Shown here: positions 27,992 through 39,639 of the stretch, in pieces
How the letters are laid out: every line of letters begins with the position of its first letter
Position numbering within the stretch: position 1 is the stretch's first letter
Assembly: GCA_016218825.1 (NCBI GenBank)
Contig: JACRCV010000045.1
Location: 1 to 43,543, forward strand
Source of the DNA: Deltaproteobacteria bacterium
GTDB taxonomy: Bacteria; Myxococcota; XYA12-FULL-58-9
Length of the DNA stretch: 43,543 nucleotides
Reading direction: 5' to 3'
The notes under the pieces: generated by a model
Databases searched by the model: none
What the model was told of the DNA's origin: nothing
What the model saw: only the letters and a program-made list of their open reading frames with translations
Translations under genes and position numbers: made by a program

Positions 27992-28624
27992 GTGTCGATC
28001 GTCGCCCGTGCCCGCGCCGCCGGCCTCGTCATCGCCGCCGTCGCCGCTCTCGCCGCCTGCGGCTCGCCGCTTCGCGAGGTGTACTCGATGCGGCCGCGTC
28101 CGGGCGGCGGCTCGGAGCCGCCGAAGTCGGTCGCGATCCGCGTCTGGGCGCCGGCCGACCTGCCGCGCGCCGCGGACATGCTCGCGAAGGAGCTGCAAGA
28201 CGTGGTGCGCCTGCGCCGCAACTACCTGGTCTACAGCAGCGCTCCGATCGGTGCGAGCTATGCCGACGCCTGCACCGTCCCGGCGGTCGACGCCGCGCCG
28301 CCAAAGGCCCTCGGCGGCGTGCTCTTGTTGCGGGTGCTGCACGCCGAGCCCGAGGCCGACGAGATCGCGATGACGTTGGCGCTCGAGCTGTATCACTGCG
28401 CCGACGGCGCCCTCCTGTGGCGCGCCGAGGCCGGCGACACCGTGACGCCCGCGGACCCGGACCTCAGAGAGCTCTCGCGCGCCTACTCCCAGGAGTTCGG
28501 GGAGCTCGCCGACCGCTACGCGGCGCCGGCGTTCGTCTTGATCAAGGCGCTCGTCGAGGCGTTGCCGAACCCGGTGCTCACTGACGACGAGATCGCGTTG
28601 AAGATCGAGCTCGAGAGCTCTTAG
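27992..28624 (+). CDS. Lipoprotein of unknown function
   Basis: A 210-residue lipoprotein (GTG start; lipobox LAAC, Cys23). The body contains VAIRVWAPADLPRAADML and two strand-rich stretches, vaguely like the DUF-type lipoproteins annotated in Myxococcus as MXAN_6521-like; I hold that resemblance weakly. It starts seven bases after the mlaC-like stop and is last in the cluster. Its stop overlaps the convergent HhH-barrel gene by 4 bp. Confidence 0.7.
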   Translation: MSIVARARAAGLVIAAVAALAACGSPLREVYSMRPRPGGGSEPPKSVAIRVWAPADLPRAADMLAKELQDVVRLRRNYLVYSSAPIGASYADACTVPAVDAAPPKALGGVLLLRVLHAEPEADEIAMTLALELYHCADGALLWRAEAGDTVTPADPDLRELSRAYSQEFGELADRYAAPAFVLIKALVEALPNPVLTDDEIALKIELESS

Positions 28625-30912
28625 AACCGGGCCTCGAGGTTCAGCTTCGCGAGCTGGTACCACTGGAAGCGGCCGAGCTGATCGCCTTTGTAGTGGATGA
28701 CGCCGTAGCGCACCCAGACCTTCCAGGTGCCGAGGATCTTCTGATGGAGCTCGAGATAGGTCTCGAGGAGCGGATCGCCGCGCTCATCGTCAGGGTCGAA
28801 GCGGATCGCGGAGGCCGCCGCGAGGGCGGCGCGGTCGACCTTGTGCGAGTAGTAGCTCACGTGCGCCACCACCCGGCCGTCGGTCCAGCCGTCCACGGCG
28901 GCGTGCAGGCGAAAGCGCTGCTCGAAGTCGAGCCGGTTCTTGTACTTGGAGACGTCCTCCCACGCCGCGGTATAGCTCGCCCACAGGCTGGTCCTGGCCA
29001 CCCGCTTCGTGGTGAAGCGCAGCTGGAGCTTTCGCCGCTCGCCGCGGCCGCACGTCGCCCCATCGAAGCCATGGTCGGCCAGCTCGCCGATGTCGCAGAA
29101 GTCGCCGGCGTCGTAGACCTCGCCGCGCTTGTTGTGCGCCAGGTCTTTGTTCTTGTAGTCGAGGAGCAGCGACGCTGACTCTTTGCTCGTGACCTCGTAG
29201 TCGAAGCGCTGCATCACCCACAGATCGACCGGGATCTCTTGCTTCAGCCGATACTCGGGCGCGCCGCTGCCGAAGAATATCGCCGGCAGGTAGGGGTTCT
29301 GCCACAGGTCCACGCCCGTCACGAGCTTGAGGTCGGAAATCGGTCGAAACGTCGACTTCAACCGCAGCCCGCGCTCGTTGCGCGCCGCCAAGCCGAAGAG
29401 CTTGTCGCGCGCCGCCTCGCCGCGCCCGTGCGGGTTTTCGTAGAGGACGCCGTAGTAGCGGGCCCCCAGCTCCAGCTCGACTTGCGGGGTCGGCGTGAGG
29501 ACGCTGCGGACATAGGCGCCGTTGCCGCCGGCGAGGGTGCGGGCGACCTCGGCCGACAGCTCCACCGGGCCGTAGCCCCAACCGGCGTTGACGCCGTAGG
29601 CGCCGAACTGACGCTCGCGTGGCATCACCGCGGTGTAGGCGAAGACGCTGTTCGCCTCGGTCCCTACTCGCACCGAGGTGGTCGAGACGTAGGCCGTAGC
29701 GCCGACGTGGGTCTTGGCGCCGAAGTTGGCGGTGACGTTGGCGCCGCCCAAGCGCTCCTCGTACGCGTCCTTGACCGTCTCCCAGGTGTACGACTTCTGC
29801 CGCAGATCGCCGGCCTGATAGATCCTCGAGGCGCGACAGGTGCCGTCGCCCCCGCAAGTGTAGCCCCCCGGGCAGTCCGAGTCGGTGTTGCAGTGGTTGG
29901 CGCCGTACCAAGGATCCAGGCCGTAGTTCAAGTGGTACTGATAAAGATCGTTGCGGTTGTCGGAGACGAACACGGTCGCATCCAGCCAGCCGCTGCCGAT
30001 CTCGGCGCCGGTCAACGACACCGCGGCCCCGAACTGACCGTTGGTCGGCCGGAGCCTGCCGAGCTCATTGTCCTCGGTGATGTCGTGGTTCTCGTACCAG
30101 CCGTGCGGAAACCGCGGGCTCGCCGACGAGAACACCAACCGCTCGCCGAACCCGACGGTGTAGCTGCCGAGCACCATGCTCACCGCGCCGTAGCCCCCGA
30201 ACACGTAGACGCTGTCCAGGTCGAGCCTATCGGACGGGCCGTTCGAGACCAGGTAGCCGCGCGAGTAGTCCCACCAGGCGATGGTCCGCCGGCGGAAGGT
30301 GGCGAGGGCGCCGGCCCCGAGGTAGGTGAAGCCGGTGCCCTGCAGCCGCAGATAGGTCTGGGGATAGCGCGGCTTGCGCTCGACGATGGGATCGATGTAG
30401 TCAGTGGCCTTCGGATCAGTCTCGGCGCGGTTCTTGTCCAGCCCCTGCCGCCAGATCGAGCCGACCTCGGCCTTGCCGCGAATCGAGGTCGTCGACTCCA
30501 CGGGGCGCGGCTCGCCGTCGCCGAAGGTGATGAAAGGCGCGATCGCGGCGATGAGCCCGGAGCTCAACCCCGGCACCTCCGCGAGCTTCTCGAGCGCCTC
30601 GAAGGGCCCGTTGTCGGCGCGGTAGGCGATGATGGCGTCGGCCTGGGCGTAGGTGAGCTGCGGCAGATCATAGAGCAGGTAGCGATCGGCGCGATTGACA
30701 TTCATCGGCCGCTGCAAGAGCGCCCCGAGCACCTCGACCGAGTCGTCTTCCAGATCGCCTTGGTGTTGCAGCTCGTAGAGATCCTCGAGGCTGTCGACGT
30801 GAACCGGGGCCTCGTACTCCCGCGCCGGCGCCCGACTGGAGACGCCGAGCGCCACGCCGAGGGCCGCGACCCAAACAAAGCCCGACCACCGCCGCCCCCA
30901 GGCCTGATGCAT
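28621..30912 (-). CDS. Outer-membrane barrel protein with N-terminal ComEA-like helix-hairpin-helix domain
   Basis: A 763-residue exported protein; signal peptide to about residue 30. Residues about 68-130 form a double helix-hairpin-helix DNA-binding-type domain (VNRADRYLLYDLPQLTYAQA; IIAYRADNGPFEALEKL; VPGLSSGLIAAI). The rest is a large strand-rich barrel-like body ending in AKLNLEARF, a terminal-Phe OM signature. A small Cys-rich insert (CNTDSDCPGGYTCGGDGTC) lies in the middle. This HhH-plus-barrel layout is familiar from Bacteroidetes. It is last in an operon after a nuclease and a lamin-tail lipoprotein, suggesting handling of DNA at the outer membrane. Confidence 0.82.
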   Translation of the reverse strand: MHQAWGRRWSGFVWVAALGVALGVSSRAPAREYEAPVHVDSLEDLYELQHQGDLEDDSVEVLGALLQRPMNVNRADRYLLYDLPQLTYAQADAIIAYRADNGPFEALEKLAEVPGLSSGLIAAIAPFITFGDGEPRPVESTTSIRGKAEVGSIWRQGLDKNRAETDPKATDYIDPIVERKPRYPQTYLRLQGTGFTYLGAGALATFRRRTIAWWDYSRGYLVSNGPSDRLDLDSVYVFGGYGAVSMVLGSYTVGFGERLVFSSASPRFPHGWYENHDITEDNELGRLRPTNGQFGAAVSLTGAEIGSGWLDATVFVSDNRNDLYQYHLNYGLDPWYGANHCNTDSDCPGGYTCGGDGTCRASRIYQAGDLRQKSYTWETVKDAYEERLGGANVTANFGAKTHVGATAYVSTTSVRVGTEANSVFAYTAVMPRERQFGAYGVNAGWGYGPVELSAEVARTLAGGNGAYVRSVLTPTPQVELELGARYYGVLYENPHGRGEAARDKLFGLAARNERGLRLKSTFRPISDLKLVTGVDLWQNPYLPAIFFGSGAPEYRLKQEIPVDLWVMQRFDYEVTSKESASLLLDYKNKDLAHNKRGEVYDAGDFCDIGELADHGFDGATCGRGERRKLQLRFTTKRVARTSLWASYTAAWEDVSKYKNRLDFEQRFRLHAAVDGWTDGRVVAHVSYYSHKVDRAALAAASAIRFDPDDERGDPLLETYLELHQKILGTWKVWVRYGVIHYKGDQLGRFQWYQLAKLNLEARF

Positions 30913-30923
30913 CGCGCGCCTCG

Positions 30924-31442
30924 TCACTTGAAGGCCCCCAGCGGACACGCCGCGGTCGAGCACGCGCCCCACAATCCGGCGTCCGCGGCCTTCGCCGCCG
31001 CCTGGATCGCCTCGAAGTCGGCGGCGTGCTTCTCGTTCGGCGGGATCACCTCGAGGCGGGCGTAGCCGCGCTCGAGCAGGATCTCGTTTACCATCCGCTC
31101 GTCGAGGCTCACGTACGCGAGCGTTCGCCCGAAGTGATCCTGGCACTCCTGGTCGTACTCGAGCTTCACCGCCTGGTTCAGCACCAGCGAGGTGTTCAGC
31201 TCTTTCGCCTCCGGCCCGAAGCAGCAGCTATCAGGGGCGGTGCTGTGCGGCACCTCCGGGGTGTCGACGAGCAGGTAGCGGATACGCACCCCGGTCGCCA
31301 GGTCGACGGTGTCGCCGTCCACCACGTTCACGACCAGCCCGTCCGCCGGCCCGCAAGGGCTCGCGGTGGTGTTCAGGTCGTTCGCCGCCGGACAGCCGAC
31401 GACGGCGGCGGCGACGACAGCGAGGAGCATCAGCACGCGCAT
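30924..31442 (-). CDS. Staphylococcal-nuclease-like (thermonuclease) lipoprotein
   Basis: A 172-residue lipoprotein (lipobox VVGC, Cys17) with a complete SNase catalytic set: VDGDTVDL (Asp42, Asp44), RIRYLLVDTPE (Arg55, Asp60, Thr61, Glu63) and HFGRTLAYV (Arg106). These correspond to Staphylococcus nuclease R35, D40, T41, E43 and R87, so calcium-dependent DNA/RNA cleavage is expected. Extra cysteines (DSCCFGPEA, WGACSTAAC) may form disulfides. A GTG just upstream is an alternative start. It lies 11 bp before the HhH-barrel gene. Confidence 0.9.
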   Translation of the reverse strand: MRVLMLLAVVAAAVVGCPAANDLNTTASPCGPADGLVVNVVDGDTVDLATGVRIRYLLVDTPEVPHSTAPDSCCFGPEAKELNTSLVLNQAVKLEYDQECQDHFGRTLAYVSLDERMVNEILLERGYARLEVIPPNEKHAADFEAIQAAAKAADAGLWGACSTAACPLGAFK

Positions 31443-31461
31443 CACAAGAAGCCTCGACTGC

Positions 31462-33195
31462 TCAGGGGCAAGGATCGTTCGCGAGCCCGGGTGAGCCCGA
31501 GCCGGTGAACGGCAAGTGCGGCGTCGTCGACCAGCACCAGTTGGTCGCGGTGTCGTTGCCGATGGTGTCGAGCACCGTGGGTGTCAGTGAATAGCTCTTC
31601 CCCTCCTGGGCCGGCAGCGGGTAGCTCATCGCGTCGAGCGTGGTCGGGCCGAGCGCGACGCTCACCGACGCCGAGGTCACCGTGGTCGACGAGTTCGAGA
31701 GCGTCAGGCCGGTCACCGTCCCCGCCGCGGTCACCTGGTCGACCGAGACACTCTGGCCGCCGATGATGACAAAGGCCCCCTGCGAAACACTGAGACAATT
31801 CGCTGAGTTGAGGGTCTTGGTCGAGGCGCTGGCGGCGGTGTTCACGATCGAGAGCCCGTTCAAGTCGACCGGACCGAAAGCGACGTACAGCTCGATCCAC
31901 TCCCGATTGTTGTCGGCGGCGGACGGCGGCGAGCCCGGATCGGGATAGACCTCGGTGATGACCAGATCGCCCGGATTCGGCGCCCGCACCAGGCGCGGCG
32001 TGCCGCCCTCGAGGCAGGCGCTGCCGCACAGGTCGTTCGCCTGCCCCGGCGTGCCGGTGCCTTCGAACACCCCGGTCGTCGACGAGGTGCAGAAGCTCTC
32101 GGGCTGGTCGTTGTCGGCCGGGTTGAGCTTCATCGGGTCGAGCGACGCCGACTTGCCGGAGGTCGCGTCGGGCACGCTCGCCCGATCGATGAGCTTGTGA
32201 CCCCGGTAGAGGTCGACCGCGCCGGCGCCGGCGTAGAGCTCGAGCCCTGGCGCCACGGCGGTGACGGTGACGCCGCCGTTTTGCGCCGGATCGGCGAGGG
32301 CCCCGATCACCAGGTAGTCGCCCGGCTCACCACCGGCGCAGCCGATGTCGGTCACCTGCAGCTCGCGGCTCGAGCCGCTCGTTGTCGTATTCACGATCTT
32401 GAGGCCGTTCAGGTCGATGTGGCGCGCGCCCGCGACGTAGATCTCGATCCACTCCTTGCCGGCGTCGGTGCCCGCGGGATCGGCGAGCACCTCCGAGATC
32501 GCGATCTCGCCCGGGGTCGGGGTCGCGACGTCGCGCATCACGCCGCCGCCGGTGTCGCAGGTCGCGAAACCGCACAGGTCGTTGGCGTAGCCCGGGGTGC
32601 CGCGGTTGACGCCGTCGAAGCTGTTGCCGACCGCGCACCACCACTCGCTCCGGTCGTTCAGCATCGCGTCGGGGGCGACGCCGCCGTCAAAACTGAGACT
32701 GACCCCTTCTTGCGGCTCGGGCAGACCGTCGGGGGTGCCGTACCACACCGCGTCGACCTCGACGTCGCGGCACTTGAGGCTGATCCCGCCGACGGTGTTG
32801 TTGAGCGCGCCGAAGCTCTCGTCCTCGGAGCTGTAGGGATACTGGATCGGCGCCTCACCGGGGTAGCCGTCGCCGAGGACGAAATAGGCCCGGGATTCCA
32901 AGGGGGGGGTGCCGCGCAGCGTGTGTGTCGAGCTCTTGATGCTGCCGTCGCCGGCGAACGACAGGCGCTCGATGATCAGCCGGTCGAGGACCTGGGTCGA
33001 GGAGGTGGTGTTGTAGATCTCGAACCACTCCCGGCCCGAGTCGTCGTCCTGTGGGTTCGCCATGATCTCGGCGATCGCGAGGTCGCCCTGCAAGAGCTCG
33101 CAGCCGACCCCCACCGCCGCGTGCTCGGCGCAACCCACGAGCCACGCGCCCTGCAGCGCCAGGCCGAGAGCACAGACGAAACGGCAGATGCGCAT
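31462..33195 (-). CDS. Lamin-tail-domain lipoprotein (three domains)
   Basis: A 577-residue lipoprotein (lipobox LVGC, Cys22) with three lamin-tail (LTD) beta-sandwich repeats. They begin GDLAIAEIMANP (about 38), GEIAISEVLADP (about 228) and GDLVITEVYPDP (about 407). Each has a (R/K)EW(F/I)EIY or REWIELY strand and ends with a G(T/S)PG-x-AND-x-C segment. Bacterial LTD domains are surface modules often found near nucleases. GAGAGG precedes the ATG at 33195. It heads the nuclease/HhH-barrel operon. Confidence 0.87.
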   Translation of the reverse strand: MRICRFVCALGLALQGAWLVGCAEHAAVGVGCELLQGDLAIAEIMANPQDDDSGREWFEIYNTTSSTQVLDRLIIERLSFAGDGSIKSSTHTLRGTPPLESRAYFVLGDGYPGEAPIQYPYSSEDESFGALNNTVGGISLKCRDVEVDAVWYGTPDGLPEPQEGVSLSFDGGVAPDAMLNDRSEWWCAVGNSFDGVNRGTPGYANDLCGFATCDTGGGVMRDVATPTPGEIAISEVLADPAGTDAGKEWIEIYVAGARHIDLNGLKIVNTTTSGSSRELQVTDIGCAGGEPGDYLVIGALADPAQNGGVTVTAVAPGLELYAGAGAVDLYRGHKLIDRASVPDATSGKSASLDPMKLNPADNDQPESFCTSSTTGVFEGTGTPGQANDLCGSACLEGGTPRLVRAPNPGDLVITEVYPDPGSPPSAADNNREWIELYVAFGPVDLNGLSIVNTAASASTKTLNSANCLSVSQGAFVIIGGQSVSVDQVTAAGTVTGLTLSNSSTTVTSASVSVALGPTTLDAMSYPLPAQEGKSYSLTPTVLDTIGNDTATNWCWSTTPHLPFTGSGSPGLANDPCP

Positions 33196-33481: not shown

Positions 33482-35536
33482 TTACGGGCTCTTCGGCGCG
33501 ACCGGCGTCCCCGGCGGCACGCTGCCGATCCCCGGGGCGATGCGCTCGAGGGCCACCGCCGCGTCCGAGTAGTCCGGCTGCGCCTTGATCGCCGCCTGGT
33601 AGGCCGCGACCGCCTCGCTCTTCTTGCCGAGCCGCTCCTGGATCTTGCCGAGCTGGAAGTAGGCCTCGGCGTAGGTGGGATCGACGCGGGCGGCCTCGGA
33701 GAACGAGCGCACCGCGGCGTCGGTGCGCCCGGTCTTGTAGTAGGCGAACGCCGCGTAGTAGTAGGCCTTGGCGAGGCGGTTGTCGCCGGCGATCGCCTGC
33801 TCGTAGTGGACGATGGCCTCCTTGGCCTCGCCGCCGTTGTAGAGCGCCAGCCCCAGGTACATGTGCGCCTCGGCATGCGCCGGCTCGGCGGCGAGCGCGG
33901 CGCGGTACTCCTTGATCTCGAGGTCCTTCTTCTGCTGGGCGTAGTAGACCTGCCCCAGACCGACGCGGGCGTCGGGGAAGTTGGGGCGGAGCTCGAGGGC
34001 GCGCTTGAAGTTGCTCTCGGCGTCCGGGACCTTGCCGCGCCGCAGGTTGAGCTTGCCCAAGCCCGCCCAGCCCTCGGCGGAATCCGGCGCCAGCTTCACC
34101 GCGGTCTCGAGCTCAGAGACCGCGCGCGCCGAGTTGCCCCAGGCCAAGAGCGCCTCGCCCAGATGCACCCGGATCTTGGCGTTCTTCTGGTCCAGATCGA
34201 GGGCGCTCTCGTAGGCCTCGATCGCCCGCTGCCAGTCGCGGCGGCCGGCGTACGCCTGGCCCAAGAGATGGAAGCCCTCGGGGTCCCGCGACTCGATCGA
34301 GGTCGCCTTGGCGAACGCCTCCACCGCCTCGGCGTACTGGCCGGCCTTCATGTGCGTCAGGCCGACGCGGCGGAAGGTCGAGGCGTCCTCGGGCTGCTCG
34401 GCCAACGCCCGCTTGAACGACGACAGCGCCTTCTCGACGTTGCCGCGCTGGTAGTAGATCTCGCCCATCTGCACCTGGGCCTCGCGATGGTTCGGATCGA
34501 TCTTCGAGAGCTCCTGGAAGGTCTTGAGGGCGTCGTCGATGCGGTTGTTCTTGGTGTACACCAGGCCGAGGTTGAACATCGCGTCGGTGAAGGTCGGGTT
34601 GGCGTCGACGGCGCGCTTGAAGAGCTCCATGGTCTTCACGCCCTCGCCGAGCTTGTCGTACACCACCCCGAGGTTGTTGAGGGCCTCGGCGTGGTGCGGA
34701 TCGGCGTCGATCGCGTCCTTGTACGACGCCACGGCGCGCTGCAGATCGCCGCGGCGCTGGTAGATGACCCCGAGGTTGTAGTGGGCGGCGGCGTCCTTGG
34801 CGTCGATCTTCAACGCGTCCCTGAAGGCCGCGACCGCCTTGTCGTTGAAGCCGCGCTCGGCGTAGACCTTGCCGAGGTTGATCAAGGCGCGGTCGAACTT
34901 CGGATCGAGCTTCAACGTCGCCTGGTACTCGACGATCGCCTTGTCGGTCTCGCCTTCGTTCTCCAACGCCACCCCGAGGTTGAAGTGCGCCGAGACGAAC
35001 GACGGCCGCAGCTGAATCGCGACCCGAAACGCCTCGGCGGCGCGGTCGAAGCGCTTCAGCTCCAGGTAGGTCAAGCCGAGGTCGAAGTGGATCTCGGGCG
35101 CGTTGGGGTTGGTCTCGGCCGCCGACTTGAACGCCGCCGCCGCGCCGGTGTGGTCCCCCGCCCAGCGCGACGTCAACCCCAGGGCGTAGAAGCCGTCGTC
35201 GTCCTCGGGGGCGAGCTTGGTCACCCGATCGAAGGCCGCGATCGCCGCCCGCAGCATGTCGCGGTCGTCGACCTTCGAGCCCGGCACCGCCTTGCGGAAG
35301 TACGCCAGGCCGAGGATGTAGTGGTAGGTGGGGTTCTGGGGCTCGTTCTTGATCAGGACGTTGTAGCTGTTGATCACGCGGTCGGGGTCGTCGATCGGGA
35401 TCTTCTCGGGCAACACCCCGGTCTCGGGCTGGGCCTTGGCAGTCGCGGCCGCCGGGCTTGCCGCCGGCAGGGTCCGACTCAGCATCGTCACCACGAGCGC
35501 CAAGCACGGCAGCGCCCCTCGCACCCGAATGCTCAC
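33482..35536 (-). CDS. Large TPR-repeat periplasmic/OM protein
   Basis: A 684-residue exported protein (signal peptide to about residue 26; GTG start with AAGGAG seven bases upstream). Almost the entire mature protein is TPR units, about 17 by eye, e.g. AAIAAFDRVTKLAPEDDDGF, AIVEYQATLKLDPKFDRALI and AIEAYESALDLDQKNAKIRV. Such proteins scaffold envelope complexes. It lies 42 bp after the coiled-coil lipoprotein gene as the last gene of the Nfs/Glt-like operon. Confidence 0.9.
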   Translation of the reverse strand: MSIRVRGALPCLALVVTMLSRTLPAASPAAATAKAQPETGVLPEKIPIDDPDRVINSYNVLIKNEPQNPTYHYILGLAYFRKAVPGSKVDDRDMLRAAIAAFDRVTKLAPEDDDGFYALGLTSRWAGDHTGAAAAFKSAAETNPNAPEIHFDLGLTYLELKRFDRAAEAFRVAIQLRPSFVSAHFNLGVALENEGETDKAIVEYQATLKLDPKFDRALINLGKVYAERGFNDKAVAAFRDALKIDAKDAAAHYNLGVIYQRRGDLQRAVASYKDAIDADPHHAEALNNLGVVYDKLGEGVKTMELFKRAVDANPTFTDAMFNLGLVYTKNNRIDDALKTFQELSKIDPNHREAQVQMGEIYYQRGNVEKALSSFKRALAEQPEDASTFRRVGLTHMKAGQYAEAVEAFAKATSIESRDPEGFHLLGQAYAGRRDWQRAIEAYESALDLDQKNAKIRVHLGEALLAWGNSARAVSELETAVKLAPDSAEGWAGLGKLNLRRGKVPDAESNFKRALELRPNFPDARVGLGQVYYAQQKKDLEIKEYRAALAAEPAHAEAHMYLGLALYNGGEAKEAIVHYEQAIAGDNRLAKAYYYAAFAYYKTGRTDAAVRSFSEAARVDPTYAEAYFQLGKIQERLGKKSEAVAAYQAAIKAQPDYSDAAVALERIAPGIGSVPPGTPVAPKSP

Positions 35537-35578
35537 GATCGACTCCTTGTGCGCCGCGCGAATGTCACCGGCCGGCCG

Positions 35579-36244
35579 CTATTCATCTCGTCCCCACAAC
35601 GCCCCGTCCTCGGCCCACGGGCTGCCGATGCCGCCGCCCGACGCCGCCATCAGTTGGTCCCGCCGCCCGAGCCACTGCTCTTTGACGCCGTCGACCTCCT
35701 TCTCGAATTCCGCGAGCTCCTGGAACGTGTCCTTGGCGCGCGCCACCTTGTCGTCCACCTGCGCCTCGAAGTCGGCGAGCTCGATGTCGGCGGCGTCGCG
35801 GACGTTGTTGTTCTTGGCGAGCTTGGCCTTGGCGAGCTCGAACTTGGCCTCGGCGACGATGATCAGGTCGTCCTGGGCCTTGAGCTTGTCGCGCAGGAAG
35901 AGCAGGTACTCCTCGAGGTAGCGGATCTTCAGATCGTAGACCTCGATCGCCTGCTCGCAGACCTTCTCCTTCTCGTGGTCGCCCTTCTCGGACGCCCGCG
36001 CCGCGTCGTTCTCGGTCTCGGCGATCTGCAGATCGGCGTCCTCGATGTCTTGCTTCACCTGCTGGATCTCGCGGTGGATGGCCTCCTTCTCGTCGAGCGC
36101 GATGCTGACGTCGTTCTCGGCGTCGAACAACAGCAGCTTGTTCTCGATGGTGATCTCTTGCAGCTGGTCGCGATCGACGGTGTAGCTCAGGTGGCCGCAG
36201 CCGGCGCCGAAGACGATCGCGACCGCGAAGCGCGAGGTTCTCAT
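35579..36244 (-). CDS. Coiled-coil lipoprotein (NfsE/GltE-position)
   Basis: A 221-residue probable lipoprotein (signal ending FGAGC, Cys16) with a long charged coiled coil from about residue 25 to 180 (LQEITIENKLLLFDAEND ... FELAKAKLAKNN). Two starts are possible. An ATG at 36259 overlaps the upstream stop as ATGA; the ATG at 36244 has GAGGG eight bases before it and was chosen. It follows the large TPR gene, as the lipoprotein does in the Myxococcus nfs operon. Confidence 0.75.
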   Translation of the reverse strand: MRTSRFAVAIVFGAGCGHLSYTVDRDQLQEITIENKLLLFDAENDVSIALDEKEAIHREIQQVKQDIEDADLQIAETENDAARASEKGDHEKEKVCEQAIEVYDLKIRYLEEYLLFLRDKLKAQDDLIIVAEAKFELAKAKLAKNNNVRDAADIELADFEAQVDDKVARAKDTFQELAEFEKEVDGVKEQWLGRRDQLMAASGGGIGSPWAEDGALWGRDE

Positions 36245-36255
36245 AAGGCGTGCCC

Positions 36256-39200
36256 TCATGTCCCGGAGCCCGTGGCGCCGGAGAGCTCTTGCACCAGCTT
36301 GCCGACGCTCGGGTGCAGATCGACGGAGCTCAGCTCCAGGCTCGTGAGATTGCCGATCGCGCCCACCAACTGCTTCATCTGCCGCTCGTAGCCGTAGTCG
36401 TTGAACAACGCCGCCAGGTTCGCCATCGCCGCCGGCAGGCGCTTCTTGGCCGCGCCGTCCAACGAGGTGTAGGCGTCGGCGACGTCGCCCAGCTGCCAAG
36501 ACGCCACCCCGAGCAGGTTCTGCAACACCGGGCTGCGCGGATCGACCTCGGTGGCCTTCGACAGCACCAGCTTCGCGAGGTGATAGTCGCCGACCTGCAT
36601 CGCGCGCCGCGCCAAGGCCTCGAGGCTCGCCACGTCCTCGGGCTTCTTGGCGAGCGCTTGCTGCAGCCGCGCCACGTCCTGCTGGTAGGCCTCGTCGCCG
36701 CTGACGTCGGCCCGCCGCCGCCGCGCCTCGCCGGTGGTCGTCGCCTGGCCGCCGGAGACGCACGCCGAGGCGTGCACCGTGAACACCTTGAGCTGCTCCG
36801 CCTTGGTGCTGCAGGCGGTCGCGGTCTCCTTGGCCTTGGCGATGTACGGATCGGCCTCGCCCTTCAACGCCGCGGCGTACTGCGCCTTCTCGGCCGCCGA
36901 CATGCCCTCCGGCGCCGGCGCGTTGCCGATGAAGGTGCCGAACTCGGCGTACAACGACGCCGCCTCGTGCAGCGCCGCGATCGCCCACTCCCCGACCCCG
37001 GTGCGGATGGTCGCGGTGTAGGCCTCTTCGATGGCGCTCAACAGCTGCAGCTTGCGCTGCAACACGTCCTGGGCGGACTCGGCGCCCTTGAACTGCAGAT
37101 CCTGGAAGTCCTTCTGGAACAGCTTGCCGTAGGTGAACAGCGCCCGCGCCTGCGCCTCCTGGTCGAAGTCGCCCTTCGGCGTCATCCGCACCGCGCGCGT
37201 CAGCTCCTTCTGCGCCAGCTGGGTCTTGCCGGCCTCGGCGTAGGCGATGCCGAGATAGGCGGCGGCGCCGAGCCAGCTGCCGTTGTCCTGCAGCGCCGTC
37301 TGCGCGACGCGCGCCAGCTGCTCCCAGTCGCCGATGTCGCGATAGATCGTCAGGAGCTTCTCGTTGGCCTGGGCGCGGATCGCGCCCGCGGCCGCGGTCC
37401 GCAGGGTCCTGAGCGACTTCGCGGCCTCTTCGTATTGGCCGAGCAGGGTCCGGATGTTCGCGGCGTTCATCAGGATCTCTTCGGCGTTCTTGTCCTTCGA
37501 GAACCGCTTGTGGAACTCCTCGAACAGGAACGCGGCGCGATCGAAGTCGGCGGCGCGCACCGCGAAGCTGCCCATGGTGCCGATGACGTCGGTCAGGCGC
37601 TTCGACTCGGGGTAGGCGCCGATGATCCGGCCGCCGAAGTCGAACACCCCGGCGATGTTGCCCTCGCCCTTGTACTTGACGAACGCGGTGTAGAGGTACT
37701 CCTCGCCCTCCTGGGTGCCCTTGTTCTTCTCCCACTCCGCGAGCATCTTCTGCGAGAACTCGCCCTCGGAGGTCGACAGCACCGTGAACTCGACCTTGCG
37801 CTTGCGGGCCCGATCCGCGATGCCGGCGACCTCGTTCTTGAACTTGGTGTCGGTGATCTGCGGGTTGTCGACGAACGACTGCGCCAGCTTCGCCAGGTCC
37901 TCGTAGCGGTCGAGCTTGTGCAGCGCGTCCAACGCCAGGTTGCCGGCGGTCGCCATGTCCTTGTGGGTCGGGTACTCCTTGATAAAGGTGGTGAACAGCT
38001 CCGAGGCGCGCTCGTACTCGCCCTGCTGGTAGTACATCTTGGCGATGTTGAACTTGACGTTCGGGGTCTTGTCGCTCTTCGGCCAGCTGCGGACGTAGAA
38101 GGCGCCGAGCTGCTTCAAGCCCTCGCGCGAGCGCAACACCTCGAGCTTGTTCAACAACCCGGGCTTGGTCGGGTGCTTGTCGCGATAGACCGAGTCCTCC
38201 TCCAGCGCCTTGTGGTACGAGAGGATGGAGTTGTAGATCATGTCGCCGCGCTCGTTGCCGTCCGGCATCTCCTTCGCGATGTCTTCGTACTGCCGGCCGG
38301 CGGCGAGGTAGTCGGCGGTCTGGTACAAGGCCTCGGCGCGGTTCAGCTGCATCGTCCGCCGCTCTTTTTGATTGTTGAACAACGACAGGTACTTGCGATA
38401 GGCGTCGGCGGCCACCTTCGCCGACTCCTTGTCGCCCTTCTTCTGGGCCTCGGCGTGCAGCCGGGTCGCGAGGTCGCGGGCGCGGATCTCGAAGTCCTGC
38501 TCCAGCTGCTCCTTCTCCTCCTGCTTGAAGCGCAGGTGGTTCTCGAAGCGCGCCAGGGTCTTCACCATCGCGTCGACGTCCTCGGCGGCGTGGGCGTAGC
38601 GCTTGGGGTTGGCGCGCGACATGTTGCGCACCGAGTCGTAGATCCGCTGCACGAACTCGATGTTCTGCTCGACGTCGGCCGACAGCTGGATGATCTCGCG
38701 GTACAACAGCGCCGCGCTCATGTACTCGGTCTTGATGAAGTAGCGGTTGGCGAGCTTCTTCAGCACGTCGACGTAGAGGTTCTTCGACTCCGACAGCTTG
38801 CGGTAATACTCGGGCGCCGCCGACGCCTTGCGGACCTCGGAGTACGGCCACACCATCGCCATCAGCGCCTCGCGCTTGACGTCGAGCCTCTTGGCCTCGC
38901 CGACCGCGCCGCGCTTGTTCTTCTTGCCGCTGGTCACCGACCCTTCAAACGAGGCGAGCGCCTCTTTGAACTTCTCCTGGTTGATCCGGATCCAGCCGAG
39001 CTTGTAGCGCGCCATGTCGCTCAGGTGGCTCTCGGGAAGCGACAGGATGTCGAGGTAGTACTTCTCGGCCTGATCGATCTCGCCCTTGTCGAAGTGGTAG
39101 TCGCCGATGATCAGGCGGGCCTCGATGGCCCAGTCGCTCTTCGGGTACTTGTCGATCAGCTCCTTGTACTCCTTGAGCATCGTGTCCCACTCGCCGAGCT

Positions 39201-39639
39201 CGCGGAACTCGTGCGCCTTGAAGAAGCGGATCTGATCGTTGTTCTCGTACTCCGGGAAGTCGGCGAGGATCTTGTCGTAGGTCTCGATGGCGAGCTTCTT
39301 GTTGATCTGCACCTCGAGCGACTTCTCGCCGCCCAACGACTTCGAGCCCTCGGGCTGGGCCTCCATCAGGCGCGCGAACACGTAGCGCGACTTCTCGACG
39401 TAGAGCTCGGCGAGGCGGAAGTAGAGATCCGCGAGGTAGGTGGCGTCCGGGGAGCGCTTGATCAGGTCCTTGGTCACCTCGATGGTGTGGTCGACCTTGT
39501 TGATGTCGGACGACAGCTTGACGATCATCTCGTCTTTGCTGACCTGCTTCCCCTTGGGGTTGTAGGCCACCGCCAGCGCCACCGAGGGCAGCGCCAGGAG
39601 TACCAGCACCAGGACCGGCTTGGTCATGAAGGTCGGCAT
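36256..39639 (-). CDS. Very large TPR protein (NfsD/GltD-like by position and build)
   Basis: A 1127-residue exported protein; signal peptide MPTFMTKPVLVLVLLALPSVALA. It is composed mainly of TPR/Sel1-like helical repeats (e.g. LADLYFRLAELYVEKSRYVF, AIETYDKILADFPEYENNDQ, NIAKMYYQQGEYERASELF), with Lys/Glu-rich stretches. The start codon overlaps the upstream stop as TGATG, and a GGAGGGCGGG element lies just before it. Its size and place between a smaller TPR protein and a lipoprotein match NfsD/GltD (AgnA) of Myxococcus. That is inference from layout, not alignment. Confidence 0.87.
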   Translation of the reverse strand: MPTFMTKPVLVLVLLALPSVALAVAYNPKGKQVSKDEMIVKLSSDINKVDHTIEVTKDLIKRSPDATYLADLYFRLAELYVEKSRYVFARLMEAQPEGSKSLGGEKSLEVQINKKLAIETYDKILADFPEYENNDQIRFFKAHEFRELGEWDTMLKEYKELIDKYPKSDWAIEARLIIGDYHFDKGEIDQAEKYYLDILSLPESHLSDMARYKLGWIRINQEKFKEALASFEGSVTSGKKNKRGAVGEAKRLDVKREALMAMVWPYSEVRKASAAPEYYRKLSESKNLYVDVLKKLANRYFIKTEYMSAALLYREIIQLSADVEQNIEFVQRIYDSVRNMSRANPKRYAHAAEDVDAMVKTLARFENHLRFKQEEKEQLEQDFEIRARDLATRLHAEAQKKGDKESAKVAADAYRKYLSLFNNQKERRTMQLNRAEALYQTADYLAAGRQYEDIAKEMPDGNERGDMIYNSILSYHKALEEDSVYRDKHPTKPGLLNKLEVLRSREGLKQLGAFYVRSWPKSDKTPNVKFNIAKMYYQQGEYERASELFTTFIKEYPTHKDMATAGNLALDALHKLDRYEDLAKLAQSFVDNPQITDTKFKNEVAGIADRARKRKVEFTVLSTSEGEFSQKMLAEWEKNKGTQEGEEYLYTAFVKYKGEGNIAGVFDFGGRIIGAYPESKRLTDVIGTMGSFAVRAADFDRAAFLFEEFHKRFSKDKNAEEILMNAANIRTLLGQYEEAAKSLRTLRTAAAGAIRAQANEKLLTIYRDIGDWEQLARVAQTALQDNGSWLGAAAYLGIAYAEAGKTQLAQKELTRAVRMTPKGDFDQEAQARALFTYGKLFQKDFQDLQFKGAESAQDVLQRKLQLLSAIEEAYTATIRTGVGEWAIAALHEAASLYAEFGTFIGNAPAPEGMSAAEKAQYAAALKGEADPYIAKAKETATACSTKAEQLKVFTVHASACVSGGQATTTGEARRRRADVSGDEAYQQDVARLQQALAKKPEDVASLEALARRAMQVGDYHLAKLVLSKATEVDPRSPVLQNLLGVASWQLGDVADAYTSLDGAAKKRLPAAMANLAALFNDYGYERQMKQLVGAIGNLTSLELSSVDLHPSVGKLVQELSGATGSGT

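Follow-up and report, generated by a model that had tools for sequence, protein, structure and literature searches.

Why should a lamin-tail lipoprotein, a nuclease lipoprotein and an outer-membrane barrel be encoded side by side, and what might they do together at the cell surface? The question is raised by three genes in the window, the stretch of 43,543 nucleotides that was analysed here, which comes from a genome of 6.54 Mb (121 contigs, 96.5% complete). The initial annotation proposed that their products capture, cut and pass extracellular DNA through the outer membrane. The trio is probably an undescribed device which handles nucleic acids at the cell surface. On the most cautious view, the locus couples a specific large outer-membrane barrel functionally to lamin-tail domain (LTD) repeats and to an intact extracytoplasmic nuclease.

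Organisation of the locus

The features of the locus are listed in Table 1. As first annotated, the three genes share a strand and lie 11-19 bp apart. The gap between the LTD and SNase genes is 16 bp, or 19 bp if the SNase starts at the ATG at 31442 (172 aa) rather than at the GTG (173 aa); the gap between the SNase and barrel genes is 11 bp. The products also agree with that annotation: a lipoprotein with three LTDs, an SNase lipoprotein with a full catalytic set, and an outer-membrane barrel with a ComEA-like HhH domain.

Table 1. Features of the three-gene locus; positions are those of the window.
Feature	Position	Strand	Evidence
LTD lipoprotein, 577 aa; lipobox LVGC	31462..33195	-	PF00932, three stretches, E 8.3e-23
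SNase (thermonuclease) lipoprotein, 173 aa; lipobox VVGC	30924..31445	-	PF00565, E 3.1e-20; catalytic residues all present
HhH-barrel outer-membrane protein, 763 aa	28621..30912	-	HHH_3 match; AlphaFold2 pLDDT 87.6, pTM 0.87
Degenerate ComEA-like HhH domain of the barrel protein, residues 32-131	30520..30819	-	Hairpins PQLTY, PGLSS

TPR-rich and lipoprotein genes lie directly upstream of the trio (window 33482-39639). They are found at this position in a further genus of the family (L039) and are absent from it in other families. Given this limited recurrence, they look like local synteny and not like members of the trio.

The lamin-tail and nuclease lipoproteins

The LTD protein scores 81.3 bits against PF00932 (cut-off 34.3), and each of its LTD blocks ends in a W-C ... 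G-[ST]-P-G-x-A-N-D-x-C motif. The SNase scores 73.1 bits against PF00565 (curated cut-off 21). In alignment with the Staphylococcus aureus nuclease, its residues D43, D45, R56, D61, T62, E64 and R107 correspond to D19, D21, R35, D40, T41, E43 and R87. These catalytic residues are invariant or nearly so among 13 relatives. Many lineages have a second, larger SNase (SN2) of about 350-470 aa; its consensus retains the catalytic motifs and has an additional conserved C-terminal part. A small LTD gene has also been added in many lineages, beside this second SNase.

The co-occurrence of LTDs with nucleases, which the initial annotation had noted, is found independently in other systems. In PADLOC, the window SNase hits the candidate family PDLC01096, 'SNc+LTD', at 1.2e-18, and the larger SNase does so at 1.3e-12; the SNase domain is the sole part that this family shares with the window protein. 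No other PADLOC defence model was matched. In ExeM of Shewanella, the LTD is required for full activity (PMC6085458), and salt-tolerant DNases provide another pairing of LTD and nuclease (PMC4486849).

The SNase reading frame takes an unusual form in the genus g44, where it runs in frame into a PAS/histidine-kinase protein of 1280-1291 aa (L147:12160-16002 and L148:12795-16670). In the L147 frame, the SNase domain spans residues 43-146 and the histidine kinase residues 1057-1275. Related genomes encode a separate protein of ~750 aa after the SNase gene.

The barrel and its HhH domain

The barrel protein has a signal peptide without a cysteine, a helical HhH domain at residues ~32-131 and a predicted 24-strand beta-barrel at residues 145-762. 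The AlphaFold2 model, which uses 83 aligned relatives, reaches the mean pLDDT and the pTM given in Table 1 and supersedes an earlier run with 17 sequences (pLDDT 73). By manual count from the secondary structure, 24 long strands follow a well-predicted helical N-terminal domain. The model supports the barrel proposed in the initial annotation, and its size fits passage of a large substrate. The family alignment contains many near-invariant residues. By a rough assignment of strand residues to the inside or the outside, the lumen carries a weak positive charge across the family (median +8; 30 basic versus 22 acidic residues) and is nearly neutral in the window protein (+1).

Among solved structures, Foldseek places the usher pores FimD and PapC first, followed by the Mtr porin and TonB-dependent receptors. 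No TM-score exceeds 0.47; since all fall below 0.5 and the matches are generic large barrels, the protein is read as a large barrel without a close solved relative, and a family assignment from Foldseek was dropped. Pfam finds no TonB plug or TonB-dependent receptor domain in it, even at E values up to 1, and no usher, chaperone, Slam or other known barrel domain.

A cysteine-rich loop insertion, NTDSDCPGGYTCGGDGTC, is present in the barrel at residues ~339-359 (window 29835-29898, - strand). The insertion resembles small disulfide-knot motifs, and its cysteines C341 and C359 are nearly invariant across the family; they probably form a disulfide in an extracellular loop. Matches of the barrel protein to scytovirin, WAP and trypsin-inhibitor families are weak hits on this loop and were set aside.

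The HHH_3 match of the barrel protein covers residues 70-129 (E 1.3e-12; 48 bits, cut-off 27). The NCBIfam comEA model scores 31.1 bits, far below its cut-off of 152.35. Canonical HhH proteins touch the backbone of DNA through the glycines of their hairpins. The barrel family reads LP[N/G]-L-T-Y in the first hairpin and [A]-G-[V/A]-L-[T/S] in the second, and the window protein has PQLTY and PGLSS in place of PGhGP and GhG. G-x-G is found in neither hairpin of any of the barrel relatives with complete columns (0/78). Residues 32-131 are acidic, with a median net charge of -13 in the family. A separate ComEA-like protein of the window genome keeps both hairpins (PGVGP and KGIGT). The loss of the glycines and the acidity make ordinary DNA binding by the barrel HhH doubtful and weaken, at the level of sequence, the earlier proposal that it binds DNA; the domain may instead be a plug or docking domain and not a DNA ratchet. 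Judged by its residues, a role as plug, gate or docking domain is at least as likely. Conservation of the fold indicates that the domain matters.

At one locus (L064:9971-12794), a gene for a 173-aa double-HhH ComEA-like protein lies directly upstream of the barrel gene, with no LTD or SNase partner nearby. This layout is possibly an earlier or alternative arrangement.

Conservation of the neighbourhood

Neighbourhoods were collected from 20 homologues, from 80 named ones in a genome collection and from 10 more which include complete chromosomes. After gene calling by script, labels were assigned with profiles that had been built up from the three proteins of the window. At 41 loci the sequence extends at least 5 kb to either side of the barrel gene. 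LTD and SNase genes are both found within 6 kb of it at 38 of these, although the loci are related to each other and the counts are not independent events. Nearly all LTD and SNase genes near barrels (192/195) have the orientation of the barrel gene. The flanks beyond 6 kb, 377 kb in all, contain no SNase gene and three LTD genes. Conservation of the trio, which the initial annotation left to a neighbourhood search, is thus borne out well beyond the window genome.

Gene order is LTD-SN-BAR in the window's own group, BAR-LTD-SN in a Myxococcus/Archangium-like family, BAR-SN2-LTD-SN in several lineages, and small LTD-SN2-LTD-SN-BAR in Nannocystis, Enhygromyxa and Kofleriaceae. Linkage and co-orientation therefore persist across lineages while the order changes; within families, the order is stable. 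No other gene recurs beside the barrel across lineages, where lineage synteny is all that is seen, and none of the neighbourhoods examined contributes a recurrent chaperone-like neighbour.

The barrel is found in about half of the 195 Myxococcota genomes searched. Barrel and SNase occur together in 87 genomes and are both absent from 92; nine have the barrel only and seven the SNase only (thresholds E <= 1e-6 for the barrel and E <= 1e-40 for the SNase, plus a truncated SNase in G107; a truncated hit in G086 is also counted). Of the seven hits with the SNase only, at least five are situated no more than ~2 kb from a contig coordinate start, so the barrel may have been cut off in these genomes. 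The association has a Fisher p of 8e-36, a value which ignores relatedness and is indicative only. Conserved linkage and this co-occurrence profile rule out chance co-location. Carriers include complete Myxococcus-like chromosomes and cultured Nannocystis, Archangium and Enhygromyxa. A mobile plasmid origin was rejected, as no plasmid with the barrel was found.

The set is not confined to Myxococcota. On an Oligoflexales contig (L131:2265-5658), a barrel gene, an LTD gene and the start of an SNase lipoprotein gene follow each other in one direction (...CTNDCGPPVAWVSYVIDGDT, contig end). This barrel gives no HhH match in Pfam; the domain may therefore be dispensable or strongly diverged there. 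HhH-barrel-like proteins are also known from Bacteroidota.

Proposed function and alternatives

The most economical mechanism that we infer is digestion of nucleic acids at the surface, with entry of the fragments via the barrel. The LTD and SNase lipoproteins would sit on or at the outer membrane, where the LTD repeats may retain the substrate or keep the complex assembled. DNA or RNA that comes free from prey or dead cells would be cut by the SNase, in many species also by the larger one, and the 24-strand barrel would admit the fragments to the periplasm. The HhH domain of the barrel would most likely be a gate, plug or docking module of ComEA-type fold origin, not a canonical DNA ratchet. 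That the trio is the core of a conserved cell-envelope cluster for nucleic-acid processing and uptake is an evenly balanced proposition. A fuller version is tentative and somewhat doubtful: a 24-strand nucleic-acid importer, free of a TonB plug and gated by a repurposed ComEA-like HhH, which together with surface LTD scaffolds and SNases feeds Myxococcota on prey or environmental DNA and RNA.

The main rival is export or surface display. The barrel would then carry or anchor the LTD and SNase lipoproteins and its HhH-like periplasmic domain would dock the cargo, much as ushers, Slam and the MtrAB-MtrC assembly handle their partners. The 24-strand usher pores FimD and PapC and the Mtr porin are indeed the best Foldseek matches, the barrel partners exclusively with exported lipoprotein-type genes, and an acidic HhH without DNA-contact glycines is consistent with protein docking. 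However, TM-scores this low reflect barrel size rather than homology, the usher, chaperone and Slam domains sought with Pfam are missing, and lipoproteins normally get to the outer membrane without a dedicated barrel; export is unlikely. The cluster might otherwise serve natural transformation, as an outer-membrane uptake device which feeds ComEA/ComEC while the SNase trims incoming DNA. This is improbable, even though the genome has ComEC and separate canonical ComEA-type proteins and transformation in Riemerella requires an outer-membrane barrel as well as an extracellular and an HhH protein (PMC8459023). ComEC is present in 178 of the 195 Myxococcota genomes and, being nearly universal in the phylum, cannot tie the cluster to transformation. 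A ComEA gene adjoins the barrel in only one of the neighbourhoods examined, that of L064, which is without LTD and SNase, and a non-specific nuclease is an odd partner.

An SNase on its own could be of use in nutrition or defence, with no import at all. If digestion is the whole function, LTD and SNase act as a scavenging nuclease that serves nutrition or the turnover of biofilm, and the products pass through the barrel as through a general porin. Intact SNases and the LTD-nuclease precedents agree with this, but the barrel belongs to a specific HhH family with many near-invariant residues and is closely linked to the nuclease, which is not what a general porin looks like; the reading is quite improbable. 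Envelope defence draws on the match of the SNases to 'SNc+LTD'. Here the barrel and the LTD protein would be the scaffold for a surface nuclease, and phage or foreign DNA would be destroyed either outside the cell or as it enters. The 'SNc+LTD' family is itself a candidate and has the SNase domain only in common with the window protein, and no further defence model was matched. The cluster is moreover widespread and stable in order within families, unlike mobile defence islands, and a defence role is very improbable. Digestion at the surface with uptake through the barrel is the preferred reading.

Significance and comparison with known systems

The trio is not described in the open-access papers searched. 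None of LTD, SNase and HhH is new by itself. What appears to be undescribed is their conserved combination, the architecture of the HhH-barrel and the spread through Myxococcota. What is understood of how DNA or its fragments cross the Gram-negative outer membrane concerns mainly the secretins of type IV pili. The trio occurs in about half of the sampled Myxococcota, is genetically tractable, and is a candidate for a second DNA route across this membrane. It travels together through a phylum of predators and soil bacteria. We know of no established role for bacterial lamin-tail domains, and the trio supplies a functional context for them. The HhH-barrel would be a new use of the ComEA fold.

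The fold signature of the barrel protein's N-terminal domain is that of HHH_3/ComEA, and like ComEA the domain is predicted to be periplasmic. Unlike ComEA, it is fused to a 24-strand barrel, is acidic and has lost both G-x-G hairpins in 78 of 78 relatives. The LTD nucleases (ExeM, lamin-tail DNases and the PADLOC 'SNc+LTD' family) also partner an LTD with a secreted nuclease. In the window, by contrast, LTD and SNase are separate lipoproteins, there are multiple LTDs, and the pair is tied to an outer-membrane barrel.

In Riemerella anatipestifer, a barrel adjoins an extracellular protein and an HhH protein is encoded elsewhere (RA0C_RS04915/RS04920/RS02645); all are essential for transformation (PMC8459023). 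By analogy, this case suggests that such sets can import DNA. The Riemerella set differs from the window trio in several features: its barrel carries a carboxypeptidase-regulatory domain, the HhH protein is separate, and the neighbour is a DUF5689/choice-of-anchor J protein.

The chaperone-usher pores FimD and PapC have the same number of strands and give the best Foldseek E-values. The window barrel differs from them in having no sequence homology and no usher plug, NTD or CTD domains, and the TM-score is below 0.5. SusCD/XusAB-type loci share the logic of a barrel with surface lipoproteins and a hydrolase, and TonB-type barrels are among the Foldseek matches. Their barrels have 22 strands, whereas 24 are predicted here; the window set is without a TonB plug or SusD-like protein and has an HhH domain in the N-terminal position. 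If the best explanation is true, the cluster would be a nucleic-acid counterpart of these loci, which combine a surface hydrolase with an outer-membrane transporter.
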